Assembly (NCBI GenBank): GCA_021613375.1
Contig: CM038719.1
Coordinates: forward strand, 34,200,747-34,264,746
Direction: 5' to 3'
Length of the DNA stretch: 64,000 nucleotides
Origin: Megaleporinus macrocephalus
Lineage: Eukaryota > Chordata > Actinopteri > Characiformes > Anostomidae
A program made the position numbers and the translations under genes. Every line of letters begins with the position of its first letter. The first letter of the stretch is position 1. Below are positions 8,341 through 63,352 of the stretch, piece by piece. Below the pieces are notes generated by a model. It did no database searches. It worked only from the letters and a program-made list of their open reading frames with translations, and was not told where the DNA came from.

Positions 8341-8818
8341 CAGGACTCCAACAGGACCACCACAGAGCAGATCTTATTTGGGTGGTGCATCTCAGCACTT
8401 CATTAACTCTTGACGTGGTGGTGGCGCATTAGTGTGTGTTGTGCTGGTGAGAGTGGACCAGACTCTGCAGTGCTGCTGAAGTGTTTAAATGCCTCAGTGT
8501 CACTGCTGGACTGAGAATAGTCCACCAACCAAACCTACCTGGCCTGTAAGCAGCATCCTGTGACCACTGATGAAGGACTGGAGGATGACCAACACAACTC
8601 AGTGCAGCCTCAGATGAGCTACCGTCTCTGACTTAACATCCACAAGGTGGGACAACAAAGTGGAATGGACAGTGAGTGGACACAGTGTTTAAAAACTCCA
8701 GCAGCACTGCTGTGTCTGATCCACTCGCACCAGCACAACACACCACCACCATGTCAGTGTCACTGCAATGCTAAGAATGACCCAGCACCTAAATAATACC
8801 TGGCCTGGTGGGGGTCCT
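8341..8818. mobile_element. Palindromic repeat element, copy 1 (5' of GIMAP exon)
   Basis: Begins CAGGACTCCAACAGGACC and ends CTGGCCTGGTGGGGGTCC. The two ends form about 75 bp of imperfect terminal inverted repeat, and internal segments also pair (GTGGACCAGACTC against TGTGTCTGATCCACTC). It shares most of its length with 9806-10312 in direct orientation. Non-autonomous DNA-transposon-like; family not assigned. Confidence 0.75.
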
Positions 8819-8871
8819 TTGCACTGATGATCTATCTGCAATGGAAGTTGACTCTCTCTCTTCTCCTACAG

Positions 8872-9692
8872 GCAGTTCACTGTCTCTCTCGTCCAGCCCC
8901 AGCCTGAATTTGGTTCTGATTGGTGAGAGAGAGGCTGGGAAGAGCGCAGTCGGCAATGCCATCCTGGGCAGAAAGGCGTTTGACGAGGTGGGAGTGAGGA
9001 CCAGACTGAGTGTGCGATATGAAGGTGTGGTCAGGGGACAGCGGATGTTGGTGGTGGACACTCCGGGCTGGGAGTGGTTCAACTTGGGCGGCAGTCGGGC
9101 ATCATCTGAGCATGTGAGAAAGCAGATGCTGGCCAGTATGAAGCTGTGCCATCCTGGTGCTCACGCTTTGCTCTTGGTGGTGCCTCTGTCATTCTCCTTT
9201 TCAGGCCGGGAGCGCCGCGTCGTGGAGGAACACGTGGACTTGTTTGGTCCACAAGCTTGGAGTCACACGCTGGTGCTTTTCACCGTGAAAAACACTGAGC
9301 AGCTGCGTTCCTTGAGGCTTCAGGAGGAGGTGGAGGACAACGCGGAGCTGGCGAAGCTGGTGGAGAAATGCGGCGGGCGCTACCACGCCCTCTACAGTCA
9401 AACCAGCAGTGGAGAGGACCTGGTGGCTAAACTTCTGGCTAAAATCCAAGACATGATTTCGGCTAATGGAGAGTCGGTGCTCCTCAGCGAGGAGGTGATG
9501 AAGCTGGCCAGTGAGAGAGAGGAGGAGGAGCAGAGGCGAGAGGAACAGGAGAGGAACGAGAGAAAGGAGCAGGTGAAAAGAGTGAGGGAGGCCCTCAGGA
9601 AAAAAGAGATGGAGGAGATGGTGGTGTCTGAGGATGAAGAAGACGAGGAGATGGAAGGACAGAGGAGAAGAGTCGAGACAGCAAAGAGTTAG
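8872..9692 (+). CDS. GIMAP/AIG1-family GTPase, main (terminal) exon
   Basis: GIMAPs are septin/dynamin-related GTPases of lymphocyte and antimicrobial biology that act on intracellular membranes. Numbering from the Met codon at 8841: P-loop G28-EREA-G33-K34-S35 followed by AVGNAILG, G3 motif D73-TPG, and the family box CHPGAHALLLVVPLSFSF. The usual G4 TxxD motif is not seen: where FTxGD is expected the sequence reads FTVKN. The C-terminus is a highly charged Glu/Arg/Lys coiled-coil-like tail (about residues 210-283). A pyrimidine-rich tract ending TTCTCCTACAG at 8871 is a strong acceptor, so the true coding start is probably in an upstream exon. The Met at 8841 would lie in that polypyrimidine tract and the upstream GTG at 8808 lies in a repeat. 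An ATTAAA follows the stop by about 20 bp. Single copy here, flanked by two copies of one repeat. It could be an intact small GIMAP or a decaying copy. Confidence 0.8.
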
Positions 9693-13692: not shown

Positions 13693-13930
13693 GTGGGCAG
13701 TTGTGGGCTGAAGGTTAGGGATCTGGTCTTGTGACTGGAAGGTTGCCGGTTCGATCCCCTAGACCAACAGACCACAACTCATTTGCAATTGAGTAAGGCA
13801 CCTAACCCCTAACTGCTTCCTGGGTACTGCGGATAGGGCTGCCCACTGTGTTCACTAGTGTGTATATATGGGTGTTTCACTGCACAGATGTGTTAAATGC
13901 AGAGGTCAAATTCCACTGTGTGCAAAAAAA
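13693..13930 (+). repeat. tRNA-derived SINE
   Basis: tRNA-like head with B box GGTTCGATCCCC at about 13749, then GCACCTAACCCCTAACTGCT and tail GTCAAATTCCACTGTGTGCA, the layout of a widespread teleost tRNA SINE. The A box is eroded. A truncated relative lies at 17188-17280. Not a functional tRNA gene: no acceptor-stem pairing was seen. Confidence 0.7.
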
Positions 13931-14020
13931 TTCTAACTCGTGTTTTACCCTGAAACAAGTCTCTGCCCAAGCGTTCTGCGTACTTTTCCTTGAAATCATC
14001 CATCGTTTGTTCAAAAAGGT

Positions 14021-14026
14021 TTTATT
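14021..14026 (-). terminator. Poly(A) signal of distal terminal exon (gene 1)
   Basis: TTTATT on the plus strand gives AATAAA on the minus strand, about 280 bp after the stop of the distal ApoL exon. The duplicate is at 15489-15494. Confidence 0.6.
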
Positions 14027-14300
14027 GATACATATAAATGTTTATGTGACATACAATGTTAATGGCAATTGTCCTTGAACATCATTCGTATTCAGTAGTG
14101 CATTGAACAATAGCTAGAAAATGAATAAAGGGGAGAGAGATTATTAGGAATGTTCAAAATGATCTGCAGTGTGTGATGAACATCATCTGAATTGATATTT
14201 GTTAAGTAAACTGATTCCATTAGAAACTGACTGAGAAGGTAATGAGATTATTCCTTGAACTGTGAAATCAAATGAAAGCTGTTCTGGTGGAATTCCTTCT

Positions 14301-15240
14301 TTAAGGATAAAATGGTTGCTCCAGTATTCGCTGGCTTTTTCTGAACTTCCATATTCCTTTGCACAGACCATCGCTGATCTTTTTCCAATCTTCTAGCTCC
14401 GAGCTCCAGAGACGTGATCGGCATCGGATGAGCTCGGAGACCTGGTTCTTGCTTCCTTTGGCCAGGCTGATGCTATCTTTGCAGATGAACAGAACGTCCA
14501 GACCAATGAAGAGGGCGTTTAGGGTGATGAATCCGGCTCTAGCTGATTTTGAAAGGGCCAGAGGAGTGCCCTTAGCCAGCTGCCCAATGTCAGGCAGGTC
14601 CGCAGCAAGGTTGGGGATGTTGCGAGCTGCTTTAACTTCCTGAAGACCCACGTTCACAGCGGCCCTGGCTACTTCTTCCGTCTTTAGAGTTTTCACCGCT
14701 GAAACTCCGTCTATGAAGGCGTCAATCCCTTTGCCAACCATTCCAGCCCGGGCTATCATTTTCCCGGCTCCGAGTACTGTAGCAATCACTTGGGGGTCTG
14801 CTAAGGGACCTTCACTGCTGGCCACTTGTTCCATGCAGTCTAGAATCTTCTGTACATCCTCCATGAATTTCTGGAAGATGTTGTTGGCGTTTTCCCCATG
14901 ATGTTTGTTCACTGCCATTTCAGTGATGCCTGTGACTAAACTGTTGACCCCGCTGGTGACCCCCAACCCAACCCCGGTGAGTGTGAGGGCCAGGGATACT
15001 CCAGCAGTGACAGGGACCAGAGCCAGGCCTACGATGGACAGGACACCTCCAGCAACGCCTACTGAACTGCCTGCCACAGTGGAGATGTTGGAGCCTTTCT
15101 TCATCTTATCCAGCTGGACTGCAGCCTCTTCCAGATCTGACAGGAACTGGAACATTCTGGAGTGACGCTGATTGAATAAGCCAATGAAGCGCTGTGCATC
15201 CCAGCTAAATAGAAAGGTCAGTCTGAATGACTCGTCCATC
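14301..15240 (-). CDS. ApoL-like gene 1, distal alternative terminal exon
   Basis: Apolipoprotein L domain exon: one base completing a codon, then 312 codons from ATG GAC GAG (15239) to the stop. Acceptor CTTTCCTTTCAG ends at 15241. Residues about 45-110 form a long Gly/Ala/Val/Leu-rich membrane region (starting ISTVAGSSVGVAGG and ending near NSLVTGITEMAV), followed by an amphipathic segment. A second hydrophobic helix (FITLNALFIGLDVLFIC) precedes a charged C-terminus with ELIRCRSRLW. ApoL proteins are membrane-inserting, colicin-like proteins of intracellular membranes; APOL1 forms ion channels. This copy keeps 26 residues (around the KMIARAGMVGKGID stretch) that the proximal copy lacks and so resembles gene 2 more fully. 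It can join the linker exon at 18302 in frame (CG|G = Arg). It may be an alternative last exon or a silent duplicate. Confidence 0.82.
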
Positions 15241-15488
15241 CTGAAAGGAAAGACAATGCAATACCTGAAATACTGAAAATACAGTTCTGAAGAAACATCA
15301 TGCATGTCAAGTACTGCTCAAATATCACTTTAACATTTTATTTATAACCTACTACATAATATAGCTGTCATGAAACCAATCAGCGTTCTGGCTCAGATCT
15401 TCAAAACCTAGCCATCTATTTTCGTATGGACAATACACATGGTTGTTCTACTCCAGCCAAGCAATTCCATCTTTCTGTTCAAAAAGGT

Positions 15489-15494
15489 TTTATT
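15489..15494 (-). terminator. Poly(A) signal of proximal terminal exon (gene 1)
   Basis: AATAAA on the minus strand about 310 bp after the stop of the proximal ApoL exon, in the same context (GGTTTTATTGGTAC) as the distal copy. Confidence 0.6.
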
Positions 15495-15805
15495 GGTACA
15501 CATTAATGTTTACGTGACATACAATGTTAATAAAAATTGTCCTTGAACATTATTCGTATTCATGAGTCAGCAAAGTAGAAAATCATATCAGTAGTGCATT
15601 AAACAATAGCTGGAAAATAAATAAAGAGAGTGAGATTATTAGAAATGTTCAAAATGATCTGCAGTGTGTGATGAACATCATCCGTATTGATATTTGTTAA
15701 GTAAACTGATTCCATCAGAAACTGACTGAGAAGGTAATGAGATTATTCCTTGAACTGTAAAATCATCTTCACTTCAATGAAAGCCGTTCTGGTTGAATTC
15801 TTTCT

Positions 15806-16667
15806 TTAAGGATGAAACGGTTGTTCCAGTATTCGCTGGCTCTTTCTGAACTTCCATATTCCTTTGCACAGACCATCGCTGATCTTTTTCCACGCTTCCA
15901 GCTCTGAGCGCCAGAGACATGATCGGCATCGGATGAGCTCGGAGACCTGGTTCTTGCTTCCTTTGGCCAGGCTGATGCTATCTTTGCAGATGAACAGAAT
16001 GTCCAGACCAATGAAGAGGGCGTTTAGGGTGATGAATCCAGCTCTAGCTGATTTCGAAAGGGCCAGAGGAGCGCCCTTAGCCAGCTGCCCGATGTCAGGC
16101 AGGTCCGCAGCAAGGATGGGGATGTTGCGAGCTGCTTTAACTTCCTGAAGGCCCGCGTTGACAGCGGCTCTGGTTACTTCTTCAGTCTTAAGAGCTCTGA
16201 GCGCTGCAGCAATCACTTGGGGGTCTGCTAAGGGACCTTCACTGCTGGCCACATGTTCCATGAAGTCTAGAATCTTCTGTACATCCTCCATAAATTTCTG
16301 GAAGATGTTGTTGGCGTTTTCCCCATGATGTTTGTTCACTGCCATTTCAGTGATGCCTGTGACTAAGCTGTTGACTCCACTGGTGACCCCCAACCCAACC
16401 CCGGTGAGCGTGAGGGCCAGGGATAGTCCAGCAGTGACAGGGACCAAAGCCAGGCCTACGATTGACAGGACACCTCCAGCAATGCCTACTGAGCTGCCCG
16501 CCACAGTGGAGATGTTGGAGCCCTTCGTCATCTTGTCCAGCTGGACTGCAGCCTCTTCCAGATCTGACAGGAACTGGAACATTCTGGAATGACGCTGATT
16601 GAATAAGCCAATGAAGCGTTGCGCATCCCAGCTAAATAGAAAGGTCAGTCTGAATGACTCGTCCATT
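15806..16667 (-). CDS. ApoL-like gene 1, proximal alternative terminal exon
   Basis: Starts after acceptor CTTTTCAG at 16668 with one base (A) completing an Arg codon, then 286 codons. It has the same ApoL layout as the distal copy: N-terminal MDESFRLTFLFSW, coiled-coil-like DLEEAAVQLDKM, hydrophobic Gly-rich membrane region, then FITLNALFIGLDILFIC and a charged tail. It lacks 26 residues between PQVIA and LKTEEV, leaving the frame intact. In intact relatives that stretch links the two membrane regions, so hairpin spacing may differ. It is the copy next to the linker exons, so it is the default last exon if splicing follows order. Most substitutions against the distal copy are conservative. 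Confidence 0.85.
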
Positions 16668-17187
16668 CTGAAAAGAAAGAGGTGGTTCTGAAATACTGAA
16701 AATACAGTTCTGAAGAAACATCATGCATCATATAACGTCATGTACTGTTCAAATATCACTTTAACATTTTATTTAAACCTTACTACGTAATACAGCTGTC
16801 ATGAAACCAAACAGCATTCCGTCTCAGATCTTCAAAACCTAGGCATCTATTTTGGTATGGACTATACACATGGTGGTTTCACTCCATTCTGAAGTTTGTG
16901 CATGAAGTAAAGTGTCTGTTGAACACTCCTCAAGTTCAGGATGCAGCCCATTAAGCCATATCAAGGTGCTTCTGCAGGTTCCATCCAGGTAACTATTGTT
17001 AACTTGCATTGCATCTGGAATGTGAATGCAGCCAAGCAATTCCATAATCTGTAATGAAAATGTGTGTTCTGCTTTCCAATCTCCCTAAACCTTGGTGGAG
17101 TAAGACATCTAGTCTATTCAAATGTCATTTACATTCGTTGATAAGAGTGGAAGGTGACTGCCAGAGCATGTGTGTGGAGTGGAGACA

Positions 17188-17280
17188 TTGGGCTGGAGGC
17201 TAGGGAACCAGTCTTGTGAGCAGAAGGACACGACTGAAGTGCTCTTGGGCAAAGCGCCTAACCCCCGGCCTCTCTACGGT
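17188..17280 (+). repeat. Truncated tRNA-SINE copy in gene 1 intron
   Basis: GGCTAGGGAACCAGTCTTGT then GGCAAAGCGCCTAACCCC, matching the middle of the SINE at 13693. The B box is lost. Confidence 0.5.
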
Positions 17281-17699
17281 GAGTTGACATACTGGCCATT
17301 TGATTGAAAATTTGTGAATGGCTGTGCAATGGAGAAATAAAAGTTCCATGAAATTAGGACATCACACAATCATAATACGATCATATAGTGAGACCATCAC
17401 CTACTACTGGTGGTCACTCAGTCAGTCAGTGTCAAATAGTGCAGCACAATCTATTCAGCACTGTTTGTGTAGCTAGCACATTGGCTAATCCCATGTTTGT
17501 GTGAGTCACTACTCAACTTCACATGTCCCTCGGTATCCGCCCTCCACCCCCACCACCCCTCTTACTCATTTACAGGTTGTCTTGTTTGAAAGGACGATGT
17601 TCAGTACGCTAAGCGTGATTTAATAGACTGGTCCACTTGTACACAGCTCTTACTACTTAGCCTTACAGCGGTTTGCAGGTATAGTGTAGTAGTGACGCT

Positions 17700-18245
17700 T
17701 CTTAAGGAGATGTGAAAGTGTTGTGAATATTTCTTGTGTCTTTATTTCTATAGGGTCTGTTAAAAGCTTGTTTATACAGACAGGCAAGCAGACTGCTACA
17801 GAGGTTACAAGAAGTTTAAGGTTCAGTGAATCCTGTCAGGAACCCCCAGGGAGGCTGCCCCAAACCCAGGAGATAACCACTTGGCCAGATGGATCACATG
17901 GACCAGATGGAACAGAGCCCAGGATAGACCATGTTTGAGATCCTCTCCAAGAACGTCTCTACTGCGGTATCCTCAAGAATACAGCTCATACTCTGAACTG
18001 GTCTCTCTCTTCATTTTGACAACAAGTTACAACAAAAGGATGAAGTACTGGTGGGTGGTGACTGACCAATTCTGGTGGTCTGCCAGGCCAGGTTTTTGTC
18101 CCAGTCCAGGTCCACCTCATAACACTTCATCGTGACAATTACCAGTACCTCCAACATGACACTGAACCAAACCTGACATTACAGCTTATGACTTTGGGCA
18201 TGACAGGTTTATGGCATGATTATATCAAAGTCATGCAGCAGGATC
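17700..18245. other. Gene 1 intron interior, unassigned
   Basis: Contains two overlapping short open frames on the plus strand (17723-17938, 17881-18135). They have no splice logic and no recognised domain. The phrase CAGGGAGGCTGCCCCAAACC and what follows looks like part of a dispersed repeat, but no second copy is in the window. Confidence 0.25.
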
Positions 18246-18301
18246 AATAAAGCAGAAATCCTTAGAATGTATGAAGTGAACAAGAGAAGAAACGCTCTTA
18301 C

Positions 18302-18400
18302 CGGAATTTGATTAGCTGGCTCAAATGATCATCCAGCTTCTGCAGTGAGTCCTCACTCATGTTCAAACTAAACTTCAATGAATTCTTGTCATTTTTCCAC
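18302..18400 (-). CDS. ApoL-like gene 1, linker exon 3 (99 bp)
   Basis: Acceptor TCATTACAG ends at 18401 and donor CCG|GTAAGAG follows 18302. It encodes 32 full codons plus split codons at both ends (phase 2 in, phase 2 out), ending LDDHLSQLIKFR when joined to the terminal exon. The ending LS(Q/R)(L/I).R immediately before MDES is shared with genes 2 and 3 (LSRIR), which supports the model. Longer than the matching exons of genes 2 (42 bp) and 3 (63 bp). Confidence 0.78.
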
Positions 18401-18566
18401 CTGTAATGAATTATTTGGTTTAATACTATATATGCAAATTCTATGCAAAACAAATTAAAGGGTCACCCGCTAAAGAACATAACTCTGGATGAACAGTGAA
18501 ATAGTGTTAAAGAATGTTATGAATGCTAACTGTTCCAGGAATTTAAATTGTTTAAATAGCACTTAC

Positions 18567-18602
18567 TCATAAATGCCTCCAGAACATGACACACTCATGG
18601 AT
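18567..18602 (-). CDS. ApoL-like gene 1, linker exon 2 (36 bp)
   Basis: Acceptor TTCTTCTCTGCAG ends at 18603 and donor TATGA|GTAAGTG follows 18567. It encodes a split Lys, then SMSVSCSGGIY and a split Glu. Same length and phase (36 bp, 2/2) as linker exon 2 of gene 3. Confidence 0.72.
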   Translation of the reverse strand: MHECVMFWRHL

Positions 18603-20469: not shown

Positions 20470-21057
20470 TTTTTCTCCAGTCTCTCGCAGAGCTGTTGTG
20501 TGACGCGGATGTATTTGTCCAGCTGGAAGGCCAGGACCTCCACGTTGCCCAGGCTGGGCAAGAAGAAAGCTCCATTATCTCTCTTGAAGTGAATGAGTTG
20601 CGGGCACACGATTCTGGCTGTCGTGATGACCGATCGTACAGCTGCCGCGCTCACCCCTCTCGGCAGAAAGCTCTCGCCTATGAACACGAACAGCGAGGTG
20701 ACTGCGAGCCTTTCTACCGCGTCCAGGAAGTGCTGAAGTTTCTCCAGACCCTCAAGAGTGTCCTGCAGGACTGCCCCCAGCTCCTTCTCCAGCTCAGCCC
20801 TCTTAGAGTCTGCTGTGACCTGGGTCAGACCGCTCCACACGTACTCCCCAAAAGCCTTGGCCTTGTTCTCCGCCCTCCTCACGTGGTCGAACTGTAGTGA
20901 GATCTGATCTGCTCGGTCTTTGATGTCTCTCATCATTTCTAGCTCCGTTTCTCTCTGAAGGGTCCATTTTTCTTGCTTGTCGCAGAAGCTCCTCACTGTT
21001 TTGATGTGTTCGAGGGTTTCCAAGACGTACTCCTGCAGCCGTTTCTGTAGTCGCTCT
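20470..21057 (-). CDS. ApoL-like gene 1, 5' domain exon
   Basis: 588 bp, 195 full codons, phase 2 at both ends. Acceptor TTTGTCACAG ends at 21058 and donor AAAAA|GTTAGT follows 20470. No ATG serves as a start (the frame opens with TTG), so it is an internal exon; no first exon was found upstream. The protein is mostly helical and charged at the start (RLQEYVLETLEHIKTV, then QRETELEMMRDIKDRADQ). It has an insertion absent from genes 2/3 (about FDHVRRAENKAKAFGEYVW), then the shared core HFLDAVERLAVTSLFVF, IHFKRDNGAFFLP and LAFQLDKYI. The same core is in the corresponding exons at 43867 and 59096. I know of no named domain for it; it travels with the ApoL region in all three genes. Confidence 0.85.
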
Positions 21058-26249: not shown

Positions 26250-26560
26250 AAAAAATATGGCTCATCAGAGGTTCTTTAGTGAAGGAAATAGTTCATATAG
26301 AACCTTGAGTTTGACATAGAACCACTTGTATGCTGACTGTCCAGCTAACATTGTTAAATGGTTCTTCAGATCAATGGAGAATATGTTGTATATGGTTCTC
26401 GACACTGTAACAATAGGAGAAGCCTTTTTTGTGCTAATTAGATCTCCATACAACACATTCTCCATCAGTCTGAGGAACCATTTCACCATGCATAGAAGAC
26501 TGAGATGGTTCTATATAGAACTTAGAACCATCTTTTTGCCTGTAGGTGGAACAACTGACC
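26250..26560. mobile_element. Palindromic MITE with GGTTCT motifs
   Basis: Strong self-complementarity: TAAATGGTTCTTCAGATC and GGAGAATATGTTGTATATGG pair with CCATACAACACATTCTCC and GAGGAACCATTTCACC. Outer arms carry AGAACC/GGTTCT. The overlapping open frames on both strands (26265-26489 minus, 26326-26607 plus) are a by-product of the palindrome. Confidence 0.7.
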
Positions 26561-26984
26561 TGGTTGTGGTATCCATTGGGTCGGCATTCAAAACTGTAGG
26601 ACACTGAGGTAGGTTCTTCTCGCTTTAGATTTTATTCATCAGACAGGTCTGCTTCACTGTGGAGCAGAAAAGAGGCTGTTGTTCACATGAAGGTGAGGCA
26701 AATAAAGTGACCATCCCTTCTTATAATCCTCACCATGAAGTCCACTCCGAACTTTTTCTATGATAGGCAGTAATGAAAGCTTTGTAACATATGCTATAAA
26801 CGTGAAGGTTCTCAAAGAGAACTTCCAGAAAGCTTTACGATAAAAAAAACACTGACCAGGCTGACCAGTCCGGCGCTGCTCCTCGGTCTAATCAGAATGA
26901 ATCCTGTCTTCAGCTGCAGATAAACTTTACAGCGTACTTTTAAGCTGTTAAATAATTAAGTTTCGCTTTCCTTTCTCTCTGACG

Positions 26985-39400: not shown

Positions 39401-39838
39401 TACATTTACTTTTTTGGCATTTAGCAGACACTCTTATCCAAAGTGCTTACTGTTCGGTCAGTATGTATCTCTATCTAGTACAAACAGGTTTAAGTCCAAA
39501 CTACTCAAACATTGGCATAAACACAGGGCCAGTGCTGATACCTAAAAAAAAGACAGGTCAATGCAATACCTAGCAAGACTGGAACACCTACAGAGAATAA
39601 ATACAAGACTACATACAGTACAATGTGCAATACTTAGCCAGAGTTCCTAGAAGATAAAGTACAATTAGAGTTTATACCAATGCTTTAGTAGATTAGTGCT
39701 TTACAAAGAGATAGGTCTTCAGTCTGTGTTTGAAGACCACGGGAGAGTTCTCTGTTCGGACAGCCAATGGAAGTTCGTTCCACCATCTCAGGGCCGATCC
39801 TACGAAGTGCCACCTGGGTCTTACGGAGGCCCACTACC
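39400..39838 (+). repeat. Teleost interspersed repeat (TTACATTTACATTTAC type)
   Basis: Begins GGTTACATTTACATTTAC then AGCAGACACTCTTATCC, continues through AAGAGATAGGTCTTCAGTCT and AGTTCGTTCCACCATCTCAG. Partial sister copy at 5560-5700. It lies between two gypsy scraps of opposite orientation. Confidence 0.6.
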
Positions 39839-39839
39839 T

Positions 39840-40060
39840 GGGGTACAGGATTGGAGAAAATGATTGAGGCCGTCTTAAATTGCCCACAGCCCAAGACAAA
39901 GAAACAGGTGCGTGCTTTCTTGGTATTGGCCGGATATTACCTGTGGTTTAACCGTAACTTCTCCTCTGTAACCTCCCTCCTGTCAGATCTTACCAGGAAG
40001 GGCCAACTAGACACCGTGACCTGGACCCCAGTGGCCAAAGCAGCCTTTGAACTCTTACAG
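39840..40060 (+). pseudogene. Ty3/gypsy RT/RNase H scrap (plus)
   Basis: Frame reads NCPQPKTKKQVRAFLVLAGY then NFSSVTSLLSDLTRKGQ and WTPVAKAAFELLQTSLL, the RT thumb/RNase H connection of gypsy elements. The open frame 39767-40450 is a chimera of the preceding repeat, this scrap and non-homologous sequence, not a host gene. Confidence 0.75.
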
Positions 40061-40449
40061 ACCAGCCTCCTGGCATTGGGAGGGGGTGGGGTCTTCACCC
40101 CACTGTATAACGGACCCTACCTTTTTCTTGAAGGTGTAGGGACCCTGTTAGGTCACCAGAAATTTACAGGGAGCTGTGGGAACCGGGACCAGGATATGAT
40201 CCCCTGGGGGGAACTCTCTGGGTTGAGCCAGGTGGTTGTAGGCCTGTTGTTGGGCTCGCTGGGCCTCCTCCATATGTTTGCGCATGATGGGGGACACAGC
40301 ATCTATGTTGTTGCGCCTGCTCGGGTCTGGGGAAAGGGGGAGTGGTTTCGACCCTCCTGGAGGCCAGTAGATCCTCAGTTAGGGCTAAAGCCCTGTGCAT
40401 GCCATGAATGTAAGTGTAACTTTGCTACGGATCTGATGTATATATTGTA

Positions 40450-42050
40450 GAATTATTAGTGAAGTGGTCCAAAGAGGCATTTCAGGTTTTAGATTTAGAT
40501 AAACACCAGTAAATTGCAGAAAGGCTTTAAAAACAGAGTTAAACAATTTCATAGTAATAAACTATTCATCATGCATATAATTACCATAAAGCTATAGTAT
40601 ATAAGGCAAGTTCTAAATCACTGCTTAAAAACAAATGCTTATTGTGTTTTTAATTATATATAAATAGAACACATAATAATTCTAAACTCTGAGAACAAAA
40701 TGTAGAGCATCAAAAAAGTCTAGCAATCATAGGCCAAAGCTCAGAAAGTTAGCTATACAAATGACAGACTCATATTACACTAAGACAGGTATGTGCTGGA
40801 AATCTGCAAGAAATGTAATACAGAGCAGTCATGAATAATAAGGGGGCGGATCCAAAGTGAACCTGCTTTTCAGTAGGTGTGGGGGGAAGGCCCTAAAGAC
40901 AGATATTAATAGCAATGAAAATGCAACTTGACATTGTTCAATTTTACATCAGGGAAAAAGGTGGTCTTCACTTTGATACAACAGTGTACTCTTTTTGTAT
41001 GCAGTTGCAAAATGGGACGAGAGTAAGTACACAGACTTTTTCTTTAAAGTATGTCATTGCTGTCCAGAAAAAAAACACATCACAAACTGGTAACTTTACA
41101 GGAGAAGGGAAAACATTTCTAACTTTCTGTGTATGGTAATGTAAAGAGATTTTATTAGGAGCAATTCTTTTGGTCCAATCCTCATGAAATTTTCATGCAG
41201 AGGACAACTGCTGAGTTCCAATTTTGCAGGAAACTAAAATGGCAAAAAAGAGTTTTTTGGACAGCAAGGACATTTTGACATAAATGAACATTTATTCATA
41301 ATACACACAAACATTCAGTTTGTGTGTATTAATGTTAACAGTAAGGATAATAATATATAATATATAATAATCATATACTATATAATAAAAGTCAAATAAT
41401 GTCAAATAAATCTTAATTAATATCTTAATTTTAATTAAAGATATTCCCTGCATAATAAGGATCCAATATGCCAAAAGCATCTTAAAATAAAAAAATGTCT
41501 GGGACAATTTTTTTTTGAGGGATATGTGTTTAGGAGGTTGCCAGCGGTTTTGTACATATTATATTTATGTATTTGAACAATATTTTAAAATGTAAAAAAA
41601 GGTGCAACAGATTATATATAAGATTTGATATTCAGTCTACAATACTATATTTACAAAGAAAATACATTTTTAAAAAATCTTCCAAAAATATTTGCCATCA
41701 GTTAATCTGTTAGGATTATATTTAATAGTTAGTAAAACTGTACCAAATGGCATCTTCAATCTGTGGGCACTTTTATTTGACTTTATTGGTCCAATAGTAG
41801 TAAGTTTTGGAATGTTGTAGTTAAATTTATTTCTAAACTATAAGGTATTATGTCACCAATATCACTATGCAGCATTACAGACAGTATGAACAAGATATTT
41901 CATGTTTTGTCTGATCAGCTTCATAACTTGAGTAAAAGTACACCCAATTCAGCAAGCAATATAGGGCTAGTAATTACTTCAAATAAATAAATAATGATAT
42001 TATTTGAAACAGGTTATGCTAACAGGTAATTGCAGTCATGATTGGGTACA
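40450..42050. other. Non-coding stretch upstream of gene 2
   Basis: AT-rich. The only item of note is a candidate short first exon at 41005-41022, listed separately. The reading frame at 40915-41139 has no recognised domain. Confidence 0.3.
41005..41022 (+). CDS. Candidate first coding exon of ApoL-like gene 2
   Basis: Acceptor-like TGTATGCAG, then TTGCAAA, ATG GGA CGA GA and donor GTAAGTAC. It ends in phase 2, so it would join 43867 in frame as M-G-R-E-E-E-Q. The layout (CAG|TTG..ATG..|GTRAGT) resembles the candidate at 52092 for gene 3. No signal peptide would result. Short matches like this occur by chance. Confidence 0.25.
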
Positions 42051-43866: not shown

Positions 43867-44355
43867 AGAGGAACAACTGCAAGAGTACATCTCTGAGACC
43901 CTCAGATACATCCAAATAGTAAAGAACTTCTGTGATTCTGAACAAGAGTGGACCCATCAGAGAAATGCAGAGTTAAAGAAGATGAGAGACATCAAAATTT
44001 GTGCAGACAAATTCTTTGGTCGTTTCAGAAAGAAGAAGCTGGAGAAGAAGCTGGGGGCAGTGCTGGAAAAGACTCTGGTGGGCCTGAAGGAACTTCAGCA
44101 CTTCCTGGATGCAGTAGAAAAGCTAGCAGTCACCTCGTCGTTTGTGTTCATAGATGAGATCGTCCTGCTAAAGGGGGTGAACAATGAGGATGTACAATCA
44201 GTGATCTTAACTGCCAGAATCATGTCCCCACTCCTCATCCACTTCAAGAGAGATGATGGAGCTTTCTTCTTACCTTGGCTGAGTAATGTGGAAGTCCTGG
44301 CCTTTCAGCTGGATAAATACATCCATATCACCCAAGACCTCTGCAAGATGATTAA
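43867..44355 (+). CDS. ApoL-like gene 2, 5' domain exon
   Basis: Acceptor (pyrimidine tract then TTTACACAG) ends at 43866 and donor ATTAA|GTACAT follows 44355. 162 full codons, phase 2 in and out. The frame runs through the first base without a needed ATG, so translation starts upstream. Layout: helical charged start (EEQLQEYISETLRYIQIV, then QRNAELKKMRDI), basic stretch GRFRKKKLEKKLG, then the shared core HFLDAVEKLAVTSSFVFIDE, IHFKRDDGAFFLP and LAFQLDKYIHI. About 33 residues shorter than gene 1 because the middle insertion is absent. The donor is weaker than the others (GTACATAAGT); frame continuity to the next exon supports it. Confidence 0.85.
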
Positions 44356-44469
44356 GTACATAAGTACATAAGTTATACTACATACAGTTACTATATTGTA
44401 CAATATTTGTCTGAGTACTGTAATTATACTAATGGATTCAGAAAAAAATGTTTTTTTTCTTCTCTACAG

Positions 44470-46459: not shown

Positions 46460-46989
46460 AAAAATTCAGAATCCAGATTAATGCCCTGCCAGAACATTTC
46501 GAATCCCACTTATAGATTGTTCTTCTCATTCAGCTGTTGTCTAGGCATATCATGCTAATACTGCTATACTACAATCTCCTTCATAATGGGTGTTGTACTG
46601 TTGTTTATTTTCCTCTTGACCTAGATGTCTGTAGATGTGTTCCTTTCTTTTTTGTTGAATGACACTCTGTTGTTCACTTTATTATTCTAATATTTGTATT
46701 TTAACCAAGATATTAGTACATTTTTAAAACAATCTTCCCAAATAAACGACTTTGAATGGTTATTTTTGTAATAAATTCATAAACTTGCACCAACTAGTTT
46801 CACTGACGGGTTTAATGAGGAAGCACATTCAACTAGAGCTATGGTCACTATTTTACTTATTGTAAACTGTAAATTGAATCTCACACTGACTGTATGCAAG
46901 TTATAGAGCCAAAGTTATAATTAACAAAAATATTTTGTCTGTTCTTCTAAAATCTGATTCAAATAAACTTGAATCCCTTTACACAAAAT

Positions 46990-48832
46990 AAGGACTGGGG
47001 AATAGTGTTGGTATAGTAGACTGGGGAATAGGATTGGTATAGTACACTGGGGAATAGGATTGGTATAGTACACTGGGGAATAGGATTGGTATAGTAGACT
47101 GGGGAATAGGATTGGTATAGTACACTGGGAAATAGGATTGGTATAGTAGACTGGGGAATAGGATTGGTATAGTACACTGGGAAATAGGATTGGTATAGTA
47201 CACTGGGGAATAATGTTGGTATAGTACACTGGGGAATAGGATTGGTATAGTAGACTGGGGAATAGGATTGGTATAGTACACTGGGGAATAGGATTGGTAT
47301 AGTACACTGGGGAATAGTGTTGGTATAGTACACTGAGGAATAGTGTTGGCATAGTACACTGGGGAATAGGATTGGTATAGTACACTGGGGATAGGGTTGG
47401 TATAGTACACTGGGGAATAGGATTGGTATAGTACACTGGGAATAGTGTTGGTATAGTACACTGGGAATAGGATTGGTATAGTACACTGGGGAATAGTGTT
47501 GGTATAGTACACTGGGGAATAGGATTGGTATAGTACACTGAGGAATAGTGTTGGTATAGTACACTGGGGAATAGTGTTGGTACAGTACACTGGGAAATAA
47601 TATTGGTATAGTACACTGGGGAATAGGACTGGTATAGTACACTGGGGAATAGGATTGGTATAGTACACTGAGGAATAGTGTTGGTATAGTACACTGGGGA
47701 ATAGTGTTGGTATAGTACACTGGGGAATAGGATTGGTATAGTACATTGAGGAATAGTGTTGGTATAGTACACTGGGGAATAGGATTGGTATAGTACACTG
47801 GGGAATAGGATTGGTATAGTACACTGGGGAATAGTGTTGTTACACTAAACTGAGAAATAATGTTGGTATAGTATACTGAGGAATAGTGTTGGTATAGTAC
47901 ACTGGGGAATAGTGTTGGTATAGTACACTGGGGAATAGGATTGGTATAGTACACTGGGGAATAGGATTAGTATAGTACACTGAGGAATAGTGTTGGTATA
48001 GTACACTGGGGAATAGGATTGGTATAGTACATTGAGGAATAGTGTTGGTATAGTACACTGGGGAATAGTGTTGGTATAGTACACTGGGGAATAGGATTGG
48101 TATAGTACACTGGGGAATAGGATTGGTATAGTACACTGGGGAATAATGTTGGTATAGTACACTGGGTAATAGGATTGGTATAGTACACTGGGGAATAGGA
48201 TTGGTATAGTACATTGAGGAATAGTGTTGGTATAGTACACTGGGGAATAGGATTGGTATAGTACACTGGGGAATAGGATTGGTATACTACACTGGGGAAT
48301 AGTGTTGGTATAGTACACTGGGTAATAGGATTGGTATAGTACACTGGGGAATAGGATTGGTATAGTACATTGAGGAATAGTTTTGGTATAGTACACTGGG
48401 GAATAGTGTTGGTATAGTACACTGGGGAATAGGATTGGTATAGTACACTGGGGAATAGGATTGGTATAGTACACTGAGGAATAGTGTTGGTATAGTACAC
48501 TGGGGAATAGTGTTGGTATAGTACACTGGGGAATAGTGTTGGTATAGTACACTGGGTAATAGGATTGGTATAGTACACTGGGGAATAGGATTGGTATAGT
48601 ACATTGAGGAATAGTTTTGGTATAGTACACTGGGGAATAGTGTTGGTATAGTACACTGGGGAATAGGATTGGTATAGTACACTGGGGAATAGGATTGGTA
48701 TAGTACACTGAGGAATAGTGTTGGTATAGTACACTGGGGAATAGTGTTGGTATAGTACACTGGGGAATAGTGTTGGTATAGTACACTGGGGAATAGTGTT
48801 GGTATAGTACACTGGGGAATAGGATGTAGTAA
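46990..48832. repeat. 26-bp minisatellite, about 70 copies
   Basis: Unit GGTATAGTACACTGGGGAAT + AGGATT or AGTGTT. Blocks of nine units recur: GGGTAATAGG landmarks at 48320 and 48554 are 234 bp apart, and one at 48164 is 156 bp (six units) before the first. Because 26 is not a multiple of 3 and no unit makes a minus-strand stop, all three minus frames stay open for hundreds of codons with a 26-residue period. Those frames are repeat artefacts, not genes. Lies 0.6 kb after gene 2. Confidence 0.97.
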
Positions 48833-48839
48833 AGCAAAG

Positions 48840-49642
48840 TGATATACATTGCTGTTACTGTGGTTAGTTCTATTTACTCTTTTACAGCGTAGGTCAATTT
48901 GACTGACATGCAAACCAAATTCCAACCTTGTTCTGTTGTACATGTAAGGGCAAACAAATGTTGTGGCACAAAGATAAAAAAAGAACACACTGCACAGTGA
49001 TGTACAGTGGACGATGATCACCCAAGCAAGCTCAGTTGTCTGTTGCTGTGGTATGATTATATTAAATGCTGAATTGAAGTCTATGAACAGCATTTCCACA
49101 TAACTTTCCTCTCTGTCTGGTGGGTCAGTGACAGTGTTAGACTGTTGGGACAATGCACATACTGAAATCTATCCAATGTGGAGACAACTCTTCATGACAG
49201 GTCTTAAGGCAGTATAATGGTAATAACGGTAGGACGCAGTAAATTTTTTCGGCACAGGGATGACAGTAGTTGTTTAGAAGCACTCTGAGACAAGAACAAG
49301 ATCTTGTTTGTTCTGCCCATCGCCGGAGGTATGTTGTCCTGGGTATTAAAATGTGTGATATCTGTAGAAAGTGTGTTAGATTAATTTTATAAGTTATTTA
49401 GTCCCATGTATTATAAATATGATATAAAGCACTACTGTAATGGACACATTTTTTGTTTTGGTATCTGAAGTCAGAGCTTTTTTCCCCACAGACAGCGTGA
49501 GTTGAACTGATACAGGCGAATCAGAGAATAGATGAGGAGCTGTATGCACCATGCGGCAAAATATAGTGAAATGAGAGATTAAAATAAAAAAGAACAGAGA
49601 GCCAAACATAGCACAAAGCACAAATTCAACACACTAATTAAA
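48840..49642. other. Non-coding stretch with a possible LINE scrap
   Basis: On the minus strand at 49060-49110 the peptide MLFIDFNSAFNIIIP resembles the RT palm motif FxDFSxAFNTI of non-LTR retrotransposons. Only about 20 residues, so a weak call. Nothing else recognised. Confidence 0.35.
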
Positions 49643-57329: not shown

Positions 57330-57790
57330 GACTTGAGACTTGCCTGTAATGACTTAGGGCTTAAACTGAGACTTGCCTGTACTGACTTAGGGCTCGAACT
57401 GAGATTTGCCTGTACTGACTTAGGGCTCAAACTGAGATTTGCCTGTACTGACTTAGGGCTCCAACTGAGATTTGCCTGTACTGACTTAGGGCTCAAACTG
57501 AGATTTGCCTATACTGACTTAGGGCTCAAACTGAGATTTGCCTGTACTGACTTAGGGCTCGAACTGAGATTTGCCTGTACTGACTTAGGGCTCAAACTGA
57601 GATTTGCCTGTACTGACTTAGGGCTCGAACTGAGATTTGCCTGTACTGACTTAGGGCTTAAACTGAGACTTGCCTGTACTGACTTAGGGCTCGAACTGAG
57701 ATTTGCCTGTACTGACTTAGGGCTCAAACAAAGACTTGCCTGTACTGACTTAGGGCTCAAACTGAGACTTGTATGTATTGAATCAGGAGT
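57330..57790. repeat. 33-bp minisatellite, about 14 copies
   Basis: Unit GAGATTTGCCTGTACTGACT + TAGGGCTCAAACT. As 33 is a multiple of 3, both strands show 11-residue periodic frames (LRFACTDLGLK on plus; SPKSVQANLSL on minus). The last three units decay. Repeat artefact rather than a gene. Confidence 0.95.
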
Positions 57791-58483
57791 CAACTTGAGA
57801 CTTGCCTTTACTGGCTCAGGAATAAATTTTTTAGACTGTACTGACTGTACTAACTCTGGACACAACTTGAGACCTACGTGTACTGACTTGGGACTCGAGT
57901 TGAGGCTTGTCTGTCATGTCTAATGTCTCAACTTATTGAATGTCTTTGCTTTCAGATAAAGTCATTGTTGATTAAGGTTTCACAATCATAACACAGTTCC
58001 ATGTAAACATCTGTAATCTGAGGGAGCTTCTTCCCCTTTCCATATTTAAACAGGCTCAAGATAAAGCTCTGACCATGAGCGGAACTATGATGAACTTGTC
58101 TGAATGTCCCACAGCTGTGACTCAAAAGGGGATCCACATTAGGTTGGTAGTTTAAGCTTAAAAATAAATGTAAGTGTATTTAAAAAAAATTATTAACCTC
58201 TTACTGTATATGCCCAGTGGCTGACTGTATAGAAATTGATTCAATGGATATGATTAAGTAAGTCTCTGTAAAAGATAAACTAAGACCCTCTTTCAGTGTA
58301 TAATGTGATTCTGTGTTGAGCTGCTAGTAAGCAATGAGGGGTGTAAGGTGCGATTAATATCTCTTCGTAAAGGTGGCCATGTCGAGATAAAGTTCTTCAT
58401 ATCAAACCATCCTGAATAACTGGGACACAATAAATAAATAAATAGCATTTACACACTTAAAAGTCTTTCTTTAAAAGATACAG

Positions 58484-58925: not shown

Positions 58926-59095
58926 TGCTTGCTCAAAAGTCTTGATCACTTTCGGTTTTATAAGTTATAGCCTTTTTCCAATATATTCACTGCTAAAGCC
59001 AAAATAATTTGTTTAATTGAGAGACCCTCTGAACAACTTCATTGTTTTTGTTTAAAATGTGCTCATTTTGAAATTGATGTCTCTTTTTGATTTAG

Positions 59096-59563
59096 ACAGC
59101 AACTACAGGAACAACCGGGACAGTACATCTCTGACACCTTCACCTACATCCAAACAGTGAAGGACTTCTGTGACCGAGAAACAGAATGGACAAGTCAGAG
59201 AGAGTCTGAGATAAAGGAAATGACAGAATGTTGCAGAAACAAGGAACCAAAGAACAGTCAGGGTGATATTCTGAGTAACACTCTGAAGGGGCTGGAGGAG
59301 CTTCATATCTTCCTGGACGCAGTGGAAAAGCTAGCAGTCACTTCGCTGTTTGTGTTTATGGTTGAGAGCTTCCCATTGGAGGGGGTGAACACAGAGGCCG
59401 TGCAATCGGTGATCTCAGCAGTCAGAAGTGTGTCCCCACTCCTCATCCCCTTCAAGAGAGAGGACAGAGCTTTCTTCTCACCTGAACCTGACAATGTGGA
59501 CCTGCTAGTCCATCAGCTGCACAAATACATCTGCATTACAAAACAGCTGTGCAAGAAAATAAG
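59096..59563 (+). CDS. ApoL-like gene 3, 5' domain exon
   Basis: Acceptor TTTTTGATTTAG ends at 59095 and donor ATAAG|GTAAGTA follows 59563. 155 full codons, phase 2 both ends. Aligns with the domain exons of genes 1 and 2: start QQLQEQPGQYISDTFTYIQT, QRESEIKEMTE, then LHIFLDAVEKLAVTSLFVFM, IPFKREDRAFFSPE and LVHQLHKYICI. The most diverged of the three: the basic KLEKKLGAVL part is replaced by NKEPKNSQGDILSN, and the LPxLxNVEVLAFQLDKY motif has changed to PEPDNVDLLVHQLHKY. A 24-bp minisatellite begins about 20 bp after the donor. Confidence 0.85.
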
Positions 59564-59581
59564 GTAAGTAATAAAATAAAA

Positions 59582-60445
59582 TCACTACAAAACCAATCAA
59601 ACGTTTTAGTGCACTACCAGTCAAACGTTTTAGATCACCACCAGCCAAACGTTTTAGATCACTACCAGCCAAACGTTTTAGATACACTACCAGTCAAACG
59701 TTTTAGTACACTACCAGTCAAACGTTTTAGTACACTACCAGCCAAACGTTTTAGATCACTACCAGTCAAACGTTTTAGTACACTACCAGCCAAACGTTTT
59801 AGTACACTACCAGCCAAACGTTTTAGATCACTACCAGTCAAACGTTTTAGTACACTACCAGCCAAACGTTTTAGTACACTACCAGTCAAACGTTTTAGAT
59901 CACTACCAGTCAAACGTTTTAGTACACTACCAGCCAAACGTTTTAGTACACTACCAGCCAAACGTTTTAGATCACTACCAGTCAAACGTTTTAGTACACT
60001 ACCAGTCAAACGTTTTAGATCACTACCAGCCAAACGTTTTAGATACACTACCAGCCAAACGTTTTAGTACACTACCAGCCAAACGTTTTAGATCACTACC
60101 AGCCAAACGTTTTAGATCACTACCAGTCAAACGTTTTAGATCACTACCAGCCAAACGTTTTAGACCACTACCAGTCAAACGTTTTAGTACACTACCAATC
60201 AAACTTTTTAGTACACTACCAGCCAAACGTTTTAGAACACTACCAGCCAAACGTTTTAGATCACTACCAATCAAACGTTTTAGATCACTACCAGTCAAAC
60301 GTTTTAGTACACTACCAGTCAAACGTTTTAGATCACTACCAGTCAAACGTTTTAGTACACTACCAGTCAAACGTTTTAGTACACTACCAGTCAAATGTTT
60401 TAGATCACTACCAGTCAAACGTTTTAGTACACTACCAGATTTAGA
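59582..60445. repeat. 24-bp minisatellite in gene 3 intron, about 36 copies
   Basis: Unit TACACTACCAGTCAAACGTT + TTAG, with TAC/GATC and GTC/GCC variants. A three-unit (72-bp) higher-order block recurs from about 59764. Both strands show 8-residue periodic frames (artefact). The unit closely resembles the terminal inverted repeat of the Tc1-type MITE at 4378 (minus-strand right end TACACTACCGCTCAAAAG). Confidence 0.96.
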
Positions 60446-60449
60446 TCCC

Positions 60450-61244
60450 TACTGGTCAAATTAAATAACAGTCCAATACACTACATTTGTTGCGACAGGA
60501 TCACCTTCAACTGTTATTATTATTTATTGCAAGTTATTCACCAAATCTATAGCTGTGTGTCCGTGCGGGACATTTGTTGTCTCATTTTGTGCTAATCAAG
60601 TCATTTTCAGTGGAAGACATTCTGGACTGTAGGCAGATCAGTCTAACACTCGCACTCTCTGATTAAGGAGCGATGCTGTGGTAACATGGGCAGAACATTA
60701 CTCTGCATAGTCATTACATTGTAAACAAGACAGCAGGGAGCTGTGGCCCAAATCTGACCTTTTTCTTCAAATGTGACACAGATGTGTTATCTGTGTGGCA
60801 GTGTGGCTATCAAATCACATACTGATGTTTTCAGTTAGGATTTGACGCACTTGCATTTGTGATACTGGAATCTAATACGTATGCACTTTTACCTTCTGTG
60901 TGAACATAGCCTAAAAGGCAGCGCCCAAGTGTGTTCAGCCATAAAGATGCTGTAGCAGACGTGTAAGTTGGCCATTAATACCATAGCTGCGTTTGGAACT
61001 GCCCCCTATTACAGAGTGCACTATACATCTTATACAATTTTATTTGTTGTTAGAAATCTCAGTGTGGTATTACAGTCTCTATATAGTTCACTATAAATCA
61101 CAAATAGTACATTTGTCAAGTAAATGTCATTTCTCTTTAAATAAATAACAATGCTCATATTTGTGACTTGACAGTGTTGACTTATTAAGTTACTTCACGT
61201 GTATATAGTACATACAAATACAAAGCTAATAAGAAAATTAGAAT
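60450..61244. other. Gene 3 intron, unassigned
   Basis: No repeat termini or exons recognised between the minisatellite and the solo LTR. Confidence 0.3.
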
Positions 61245-62451: not shown

Positions 62452-62562
62452 GTAAGAGCATCTCATCTCATCAAGCATTAGTAAAACTCACCTATTAGAT
62501 AGTTTAGATTTTACATTCTGTCCTACTGACCCGGAGTTTAAATCTTATTTCCTTTCTTTCAG

Positions 62563-63352
62563 AATGGATGAGTCCTTCCGACTGACGTACTTATTCGATG
62601 CAGAGGAGTTTGTTAATGAATATGAAATATATAAGGCTGAAATGTCCAAGTCTCTCTCGGGTCTAGAGAAGAATGCGGTTTGTCTGAACAGGATGAAGGA
62701 CGCATACAGCATCTGCACTATAATAGATAGTCTTGCTGGTATTATAGGTGCTTCCCTCTCCATAGCAGGTCTTGTAGGGACATCCCTGACCCTCGCATGG
62801 TGGGGGGGTGTGCTGGGCCTTGTGAGTACGATCATTAGTTTGCTCACTGGCTTCGCAGACTTTACGGTCAATAGGTATTGTGTGAATGAAGCCAAATCCA
62901 CCATCGACAGCTTCATGAGGAACATGCAGAAGGTTGTAGACTGTCTTGAGCAGGCAGCTAGTAGTCAACGTCGTGCTCCACACCTGGATGAGGCTGGTGC
63001 TGAACTTGGAGCTATGAAAGCGATGAAGTATTTTAAGAGATTATCCAAAGGTTTTGACGCCATCATGGATGGAACTGCGGTCCTTGAACCAGTGGACTTT
63101 TCCAGACTAAGCGCACCTATGACACTTGCAGTAAATGGCGCGGCCCTTTTTGCAGATCTTTTGTTCTTCTTCGTAGAACTTTGGAGCATATACAGAAGAA
63201 AGAAGAGTAACGTGTCTCAGCTCATCTGCTCCAGAACAGCTCTGTGGCGTTCAGAGATGGAGACCTGGAAAAGAATGAATGAACGTCTGTGCACAGATAA
63301 AGTGGTGTTCCAGAGGAACAAGGACAAACTAGAGGCAGAGATAAGAAAATAA
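62563..63352 (+). CDS. ApoL-like gene 3, terminal exon (divergent ApoL domain)
   Basis: Acceptor TTCCTTTCTTTCAG ends at 62562; one base completes Arg, then 262 codons from ATG GAT GAG to the stop. It keeps MDESFRLTYLF, a first hydrophobic region (about residues 50-105: ICTIIDSLAGIIGASLSIAG and VLGLVSTIISLLTGFADF), the DxFMRNMQKVVDCLEQ segment, a second hydrophobic stretch (MTLAVNGAALFADLLFFFV) and the QLICSRTALWRSEMETW ending. About 45 residues shorter than gene 2: the linker between the two membrane regions, including the LAADLPDIGxLAKG motif shared by genes 1 and 2, is lost or replaced. Frame open throughout. Predicted protein about 451 residues from exon 59096. A neofunctionalised or relaxed paralogue. 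Confidence 0.85.

Follow-up and report, generated by a model that had tools for sequence, protein, structure and literature searches.

In the 64,000-nucleotide stretch of Megaleporinus macrocephalus DNA that was analyzed (hereafter the window), we found an ApoL gene on the minus strand in which a single set of 5' exons is followed by two head-to-tail terminal-exon blocks. With a probability of roughly 0.7, they serve as alternative last exons, each with a poly(A) site of its own, by which one gene would give rise to either a short or a long protein. This reading draws on the anatomy of the gene, the reading frame, the coding constraint and named isoforms in two other fish. The idea of one gene with two possible C-termini had been put forward in a preliminary description of the sequence; that idea and the anatomy described there are supported, and coding constraint and precedent isoforms have now been added, while the actual use of both ends, i.e. 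that both mRNAs are made here, is something we infer.

The duplicated block consists of an intron tail, an acceptor, the ApoL terminal exon, the 3'UTR and an AATAAA motif. It spans positions 14008-17043 (minus strand), and its copies, at approximately 14008-15475 and 15476-17043, match in six two-copy families at 89-100%, which bears out the head-to-tail duplication of a whole terminal-exon block in the preliminary description. The same goes for the two open frames (Table 1) and for the in-frame joining of both acceptors to one linker exon: the exon 4 donor at 18302 leads to either the proximal acceptor at 16667 (CAG/AATGGACGAG) or the distal acceptor at 15240 (CAG/GATGGACGAG), with a split codon CG/A or CG/G that encodes Arg both ways. 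Homologous tandem terminal exons are thereby found behind one common donor in the same phase, each with its own acceptor and, judging from motifs, its own poly(A) signal, and one set of N-terminal exons serves both copies. Two extra minus-strand AATAAA motifs, at 16773 and 15342, both lie inside the intron tails.

Table 1. Parts of the ApoL gene with two terminal exons, in window positions; a slash marks the exon boundary.
Feature	Position	Strand	Remarks
Exon 1, coding part, MDTTT(R)	26560..26576	-	predicted; donor CAG/GTCAGT
Exon 2, N-terminal domain	20470..21057	-	acceptor CACAG/AGAGCG, donor AAAAA/GTTAGT
Exon 3, linker SMSVSCSGGIYE	18567..18602	-	splice sites and orthologue match
Exon 4, linker; donor common to both terminal exons	18302..18400	-	donor CCG/GTAAGA
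Proximal intron tail	16668..17045	-	homologue of 15241-15470 except for ~142 bp at 16887-17028
Proximal terminal exon, coding part and stop; short form without 26 residues	15806..16667	-	286 codons; frame with stop at 15806-16666
Proximal 3'UTR	15476..15805	-	AATAAA at 15494, motif only
Distal intron tail	15241..15475	-	
Distal terminal exon, coding part and stop; long form	14301..15240	-	312 codons; frame with stop at 14301-15239
Distal 3'UTR	14008..14300	-	AATAAA at 14026, motif only

For exon 1, a search by pattern for a phase-2 exon yielded three candidates, of which the one chosen was the best; its N-terminus, MDTTTR, resembles those of the Colossoma (MDSTTG) and Pygocentrus (MDPTTR) proteins. 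Over 195 residues, exon 2 is 87.2% identical to its counterpart in Colossoma and 87.7% to that in Prochilodus. Both terminal exons match the Pfam ApoL domain (PF05461), with E-values of 7.1e-36 (distal) and 5.3e-37 (proximal) and scores of 124.6 and 128.3 bits at a curated cut-off of 25.9. The predicted products are 533 aa (proximal, short) and 559 aa (distal, long) in length. Long-form proteins from Pygocentrus, Acnodon, Astyanax, Hoplias and Salminus are likewise 559 aa long, and the length of the distal terminal exon is that of most relatives. The ~142 bp of the proximal intron tail noted in Table 1 are without counterpart upstream of the distal exon.

The stretch that begins in intron 4 and ends shortly beyond the poly(A) signal is present twice, head to tail. 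If the two ends are used as alternatives, the choice would run as follows. The short protein would be produced by splicing to the proximal acceptor with cleavage downstream of the AATAAA at 15494, and the long one if the proximal exon is skipped, the distal acceptor is used instead and the transcript is cleaved downstream of the AATAAA at 14026. The N-terminal domain would be common to both proteins. Their membrane-acting ApoL domains would differ, the main difference being 26 residues, located between the insertion hairpin and the putative pore-lining segment, that the short form lacks. As regards RNA structures of the kind connected to mutually exclusive exons in insects, the inverted repeats in 13900-18420 were short (16 pairs of 14-22 nt, several being the same pair recounted through the duplication), and no docking site is proposed; Rfam gave 0 matches at gathering scores.

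The 78-nt (26-codon) deletion in the proximal copy corresponds to approximately residues 159-184 of the distal exon, with edges that are ambiguous by a few residues. As had been described from the sequence, it is in frame and situated between the membrane regions, here the hydrophobic stretches 52-98 and 233-260 (distal residues). The deleted segment itself is mildly hydrophobic, with a mean KD of 0.51 and a net charge of +2. In human APOL1, according to PMC8358165, the membrane-insertion domain is built from the first two transmembrane segments and the pore-lining region corresponds to the fourth, while an extra segment at 257-273 is predicted in APOL1 and not in other APOLs. By position, the two hydrophobic stretches would fit an insertion hairpin followed by a pore-lining segment as described for APOL1-6 in the same paper, but structure models of the two terminal exons are poor there (mean pLDDT 50.3 and 57.5, with low values in the first membrane region as well as in the deleted segment), and a PDB sequence search returned 0 solved structures. 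Given its position relative to the human APOL1 layout, the deletion probably brings the two membrane units closer together along the chain, and the short and long proteins may differ in membrane insertion or gating.

Shortening of this region was found in other fish as well. The serrasalmid short forms Colossoma P0002, Metynnis P0003 and Acnodon P0004 also lack 26 residues there, and deletions of other lengths were seen in Hoplias P0024, Trichomycterus P0033, Ictalurus furcatus P0083, Clarias P0108/P0109, Brachyhypopomus P0076 and Synaphobranchus P0075. In total, at least 17 residues were missing from the 60-residue region in 10 out of 213 proteins with readable flanks, the protein surveys being made up of the best 120 of 462, 845 and 694 hits; another 7 of the 220 proteins were dropped for a gapped flank, including P0079, which has a larger gap and belongs to no listed class. 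The equal length could point to common ancestry of the deletion with that of the serrasalmid short forms. With the window copies pairing in the tree and the alignment ambiguous at the edges, a deletion independent of the serrasalmid one is at least as likely.

This tree was based on the terminal-exon proteins of the two window copies and 14 relatives (Astyanax P0001, which has no linker, was excluded from the trees). The copies pair with 98% ultrafast bootstrap support, separate from Prochilodus and all other relatives, while in the N-terminal tree the window gene groups with Prochilodus (77%). In the terminal exon, the copies are 95.0% identical to each other, as compared to 91.1% (distal) and 89.0% (proximal) with Prochilodus. 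Joined in the tree and with this mutual identity, the copy pair is by these sequences either younger than the split from Prochilodus or homogenised since. Where the copies meet, the first copy's 3' flank (...TTGAACAGAAAGATGGA) is followed directly by intron sequence, ATGGAATTGCTTGGCTG, at 15454-15470, which recurs at 17029-17045; the corresponding flank of the distal copy is ...TTGAACAAACGATGGATG. ATGGA is common to the two edges, which suggests joining at microhomology.

The sequence alone is compatible with a block duplication and also with a deletion fusing two tandem genes; a deletion would leave the same junction as a duplication. In the latter case, two complete ApoL genes, one short and one long, would have stood in tandem, the downstream one would have lost its promoter and 5' exons, and the terminal exons of the two former genes would later have become alternatives of one gene. 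Short and long forms do coexist within one species in Acnodon, Hoplias and Trichomycterus, where the annotation gives each form an N-terminal domain of its own; separate genes are accordingly an alternative outcome, which counts against the reading of one gene with two ends. Furthermore, the Acnodon locus tags AOLI_G00176040/050 are consecutive, and the genes therefore probably neighbors, and the proximal copy and the three serrasalmid short forms miss the same number of residues. Against a fusion, the copies pair with each other in the tree and not with the serrasalmid short and long forms, and they are more alike than either is to Prochilodus; we regard this origin as rather unlikely, if the most serious of the alternatives.

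The two copies differ by substitution in 47 of 865 coding columns (5.4%; these columns also cover 3 nt of the 3'UTR plus the base of the split codon), 24 of 211 intron-tail columns (11.4%) and 21 of 289 3'UTR columns (7.3%), in addition to the 78-nt gap. Across the codon positions, the coding differences are distributed 12/6/29, and the equal divergence that the preliminary description had associated with a silent duplicate was consequently not seen. In a pairwise count, 28.5 synonymous changes over 205 sites (13.9%) and 18.5 nonsynonymous changes over 656 sites resulted in a dN of 0.029, a dS of 0.154 and a dN/dS of 0.19 (bootstrap 0.09-0.35; Fisher p 3.6e-8); the stop codon was counted as an extra column (3 nonsynonymous sites, no difference), with negligible effect. 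Indels numbered 5 in 486 counted flank columns, none of them a multiple of three, against 1, in frame, in 865 coding columns (Poisson p 0.0014; the 142-bp intron-tail gap is outside the flank count). Survival of both frames had been taken as a sign of either use or recent origin. Recent origin alone fits poorly, as simulated neutral copies, starting from the distal frame with a branch length of half the pairwise dS, kept an open frame in 1.7% of runs with substitutions only and in 0.05% with indels.

Codon models were used to test each copy. With free branch lengths (three sequences, 279 codons, the paralogue at 45 kb as outgroup), omega was 0.22 for the proximal and 0.27 for the distal copy, and omega=1 was rejected for the proximal copy (p 0.009); for the distal copy, with its small number of changes, it was not (p 0.44). 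Since copies from one duplication have the same age, an equal-age constraint was also applied in three runs: one with each of two outgroup paralogues (279 and 236 codons), and a third that used the first of them again minus the deletion-adjacent codons (271 codons). Here, omega=1 was rejected for the proximal (p 0.0021, 0.0006 and 0.0005) as well as the distal copy (p 5.7e-6, 9.5e-6 and 0.0023). Both copies thus look to be maintained by purifying selection, for the distal one significantly only under equal age. Of 18 replacements, polarised by Prochilodus, 12 were assigned to the proximal copy, 3 to the distal and 3 to neither (p 0.035), and by the majority of 15 relatives the numbers were 10 and 5 (p 0.30), which suggests that the proximal copy may evolve faster.

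These data also bear on the possibility that one of the copies, the distal being the likeliest, goes untranslated, its frame being open only because it is young or has undergone gene conversion from the used copy. The free-branch result for the distal copy would agree with this, the proximal poly(A) site could block distal use, and the coding differences form a cluster next to the deletion, with 11 of them within 60 nt (permutation p 0.015), as if the remainder had been homogenised. We read this cluster as alignment ambiguity or relaxed constraint next to the deletion, with conversion also possible. However, the longest stretch of identical coding sequence measures 80 nt, which is within expectation (permutation p 0.39), and the synonymous divergence is similar to that of the intron tails, so wholesale conversion is not seen. 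Moreover, even the upper bound of dN/dS is below the value of about one half or more that would be expected with one neutral copy, and the equal-age model rejects neutrality for both. An untranslated duplicate is therefore improbable.

Another alternative is that the distal exon is an independent gene, with its own ATG (MDESF...) and a promoter in the short spacer. An ATG is present one base past the acceptor in each terminal exon, including those of the other two ApoL genes in the window, and some short homologues start there, e.g. P0060 (314 aa, MDESF). The spacer is nevertheless a copy of the intron tail with a conserved acceptor, and a tblastn search of the window identified no N-terminal exon between or after the two copies, making such a gene very unlikely. 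With the gene's own pieces as queries (E up to 1e-3), tblastn located 3 N-terminal and 4 ApoL terminal exons across the window, meaning that only one of the three ApoL genes has two terminal exons. The other two, at ~43.8-46.4 kb and 59.1-63.4 kb on the plus strand, have one terminal exon each, with N-terminal exons at 43868-44356 and 59094-59561. Lastly, an assembly artefact in which two haplotypes or two loci were wrongly joined is hardly credible, as the window contains 0 Ns, the copies differ in coding, intron and 3'UTR sequence by more than would be expected of alleles, and the constraint is patterned by codon position.

Isoforms resembling the two predicted products were found in two other fish, all by automatic annotation. 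A strict survey (upstream identity of at least 99.5%) of 226 proteins, with 15538 pairs having enough overlap to be compared, resulted in 2 pairs with different terminal exons, both from Tachysurus fulvidraco; such pairs are rare in the survey, a point against the reading as alternative last exons. In these pairs, P0145/P0147 and P0169/P0175, the upstream parts are identical over all compared positions. The former are isoforms X1/X3 of LOC113636481, with terminal exons that are 91% identical. A looser survey added isoforms X1/X2 of Engraulis encrasicolus (P0187/P0196), where the upstream parts are the same except for one missing residue and the terminal exons are 90% identical, including an 11-residue gap in the same region. 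In Silurus asotus P0123, likewise an automatic model, one N-terminal domain is followed by two ApoL terminal segments. Three further candidate pairs were rejected as isoforms, namely Labeo P0079/P0159 (N-terminal part 100% identical over 154 residues, but a different linker), Hemibagrus P0144/P0215 (only 97.4% in the N-terminal part) and Salmo P0194/P0203 (93.3% in the N-terminal and 100% in the C-terminal part). It is possible, if on balance doubtful, that fish ApoL genes are modular cassettes in which one N-terminal domain repeatedly gains two or more alternative membrane domains by last-exon duplication, and that one copy of each pair repeatedly loses part of the segment between hairpin and pore-lining helix, which would give long and short effectors of channel type from one promoter.

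Among the catfish models, Tachysurus P0169 (“isoform X2”) combines the P0175 N-terminal domain with the exact P0145 terminal exon, hinting at mixing of neighboring cassettes, by splicing or conversion. Five catfish and conger models (P0125, P0129, P0167, P0170 and P0177) have two N-terminal domains before one ApoL domain which, if the models are right, would be the mirror image of a duplicated terminal exon.

Tandem-duplicated alternative last exons are already known as a kind. In the oyster Crassostrea, terminal exon 10 of AOX is tandemly duplicated and both variants are used (PMC5589949). As in the ApoL gene, the last exon and part of the 3'UTR are duplicated, there are two variants and the first copy is the more diverged. 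In AOX, however, the duplicated piece accounts for 41 residues and both copies sit on a single transcript, whereas in the fish gene the entire ApoL domain is encoded by each copy, with a separate AATAAA; use has been demonstrated in AOX, while the ApoL gene is known here from its sequence. PGRP-LC of Drosophila and Anopheles, which has an invariant part and alternatively spliced, duplicated C-terminal domains, is similar in being an immune gene with repeated exon duplication and an optional 25-residue cassette, but it belongs to another protein family and the Anopheles variable parts have two exons each (PMC2715215). Among human substitutions of tandem duplicated exons, 77 of 236 events swap the C-terminus (PMC9741552). 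According to the same paper, more than 90% of these C-terminal events have orthologous events in bony fish, unlike the ApoL pair, which looks lineage-young. A further likeness is with isoforms X1/X3 of Tachysurus fulvidraco LOC113636481 and X1/X2 of Engraulis encrasicolus apolipoprotein L4, which belong to the same family and have the same upstream exons and an alternative ApoL terminal part that starts in the same exon, although these are from other fish orders and the duplications were probably independent. No report of duplicated last exons in ApoL was found among the papers listed in the literature searches, with subscription journals mostly outside their coverage; the available parts of the zebrafish apol1 paper PMC4492502 and of PMC12248677 contain no mention of one.

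ApoL proteins are membrane-inserting effectors of innate immunity in humans (PMC8358165). If both ends are used, the gene would provide a natural pair with one promoter and one N-terminal domain, and a membrane domain with or without 26 residues. This would let the role of that segment be asked, and would raise the question whether immune genes diversify by swapping last exons and not whole genes. The similar catfish and anchovy isoforms make the question of two endings approachable through public RNA data.

Some other features of the window were observed. The third ApoL gene (62456-63352 and 59091-59567, plus strand) is much diverged, with a terminal exon 32% identical to the distal copy and a weak Pfam match of 27.2 bits. 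Between its N-terminal and terminal exons, at 59492-60464 (plus strand), sits a minisatellite-like array in which two frames are open (HYQPNVLV.../LPAKRFRS...). A long array of degenerate repeats is found at 46921-48873, just past the second ApoL gene, with several overlapping minus-strand frames open (YSPVYYTNTIPQCT...), and a further repeat frame at 57330-57923. A frame at 39734-40450 (plus strand) resembles, by eye, a decayed fragment of a retroelement polymerase. Near the ApoL gene with two terminal exons, at 8793-9692 (plus strand), an open frame has a strong match to the AIG1/GIMAP GTPase domain (PF04548, E 1.2e-34).
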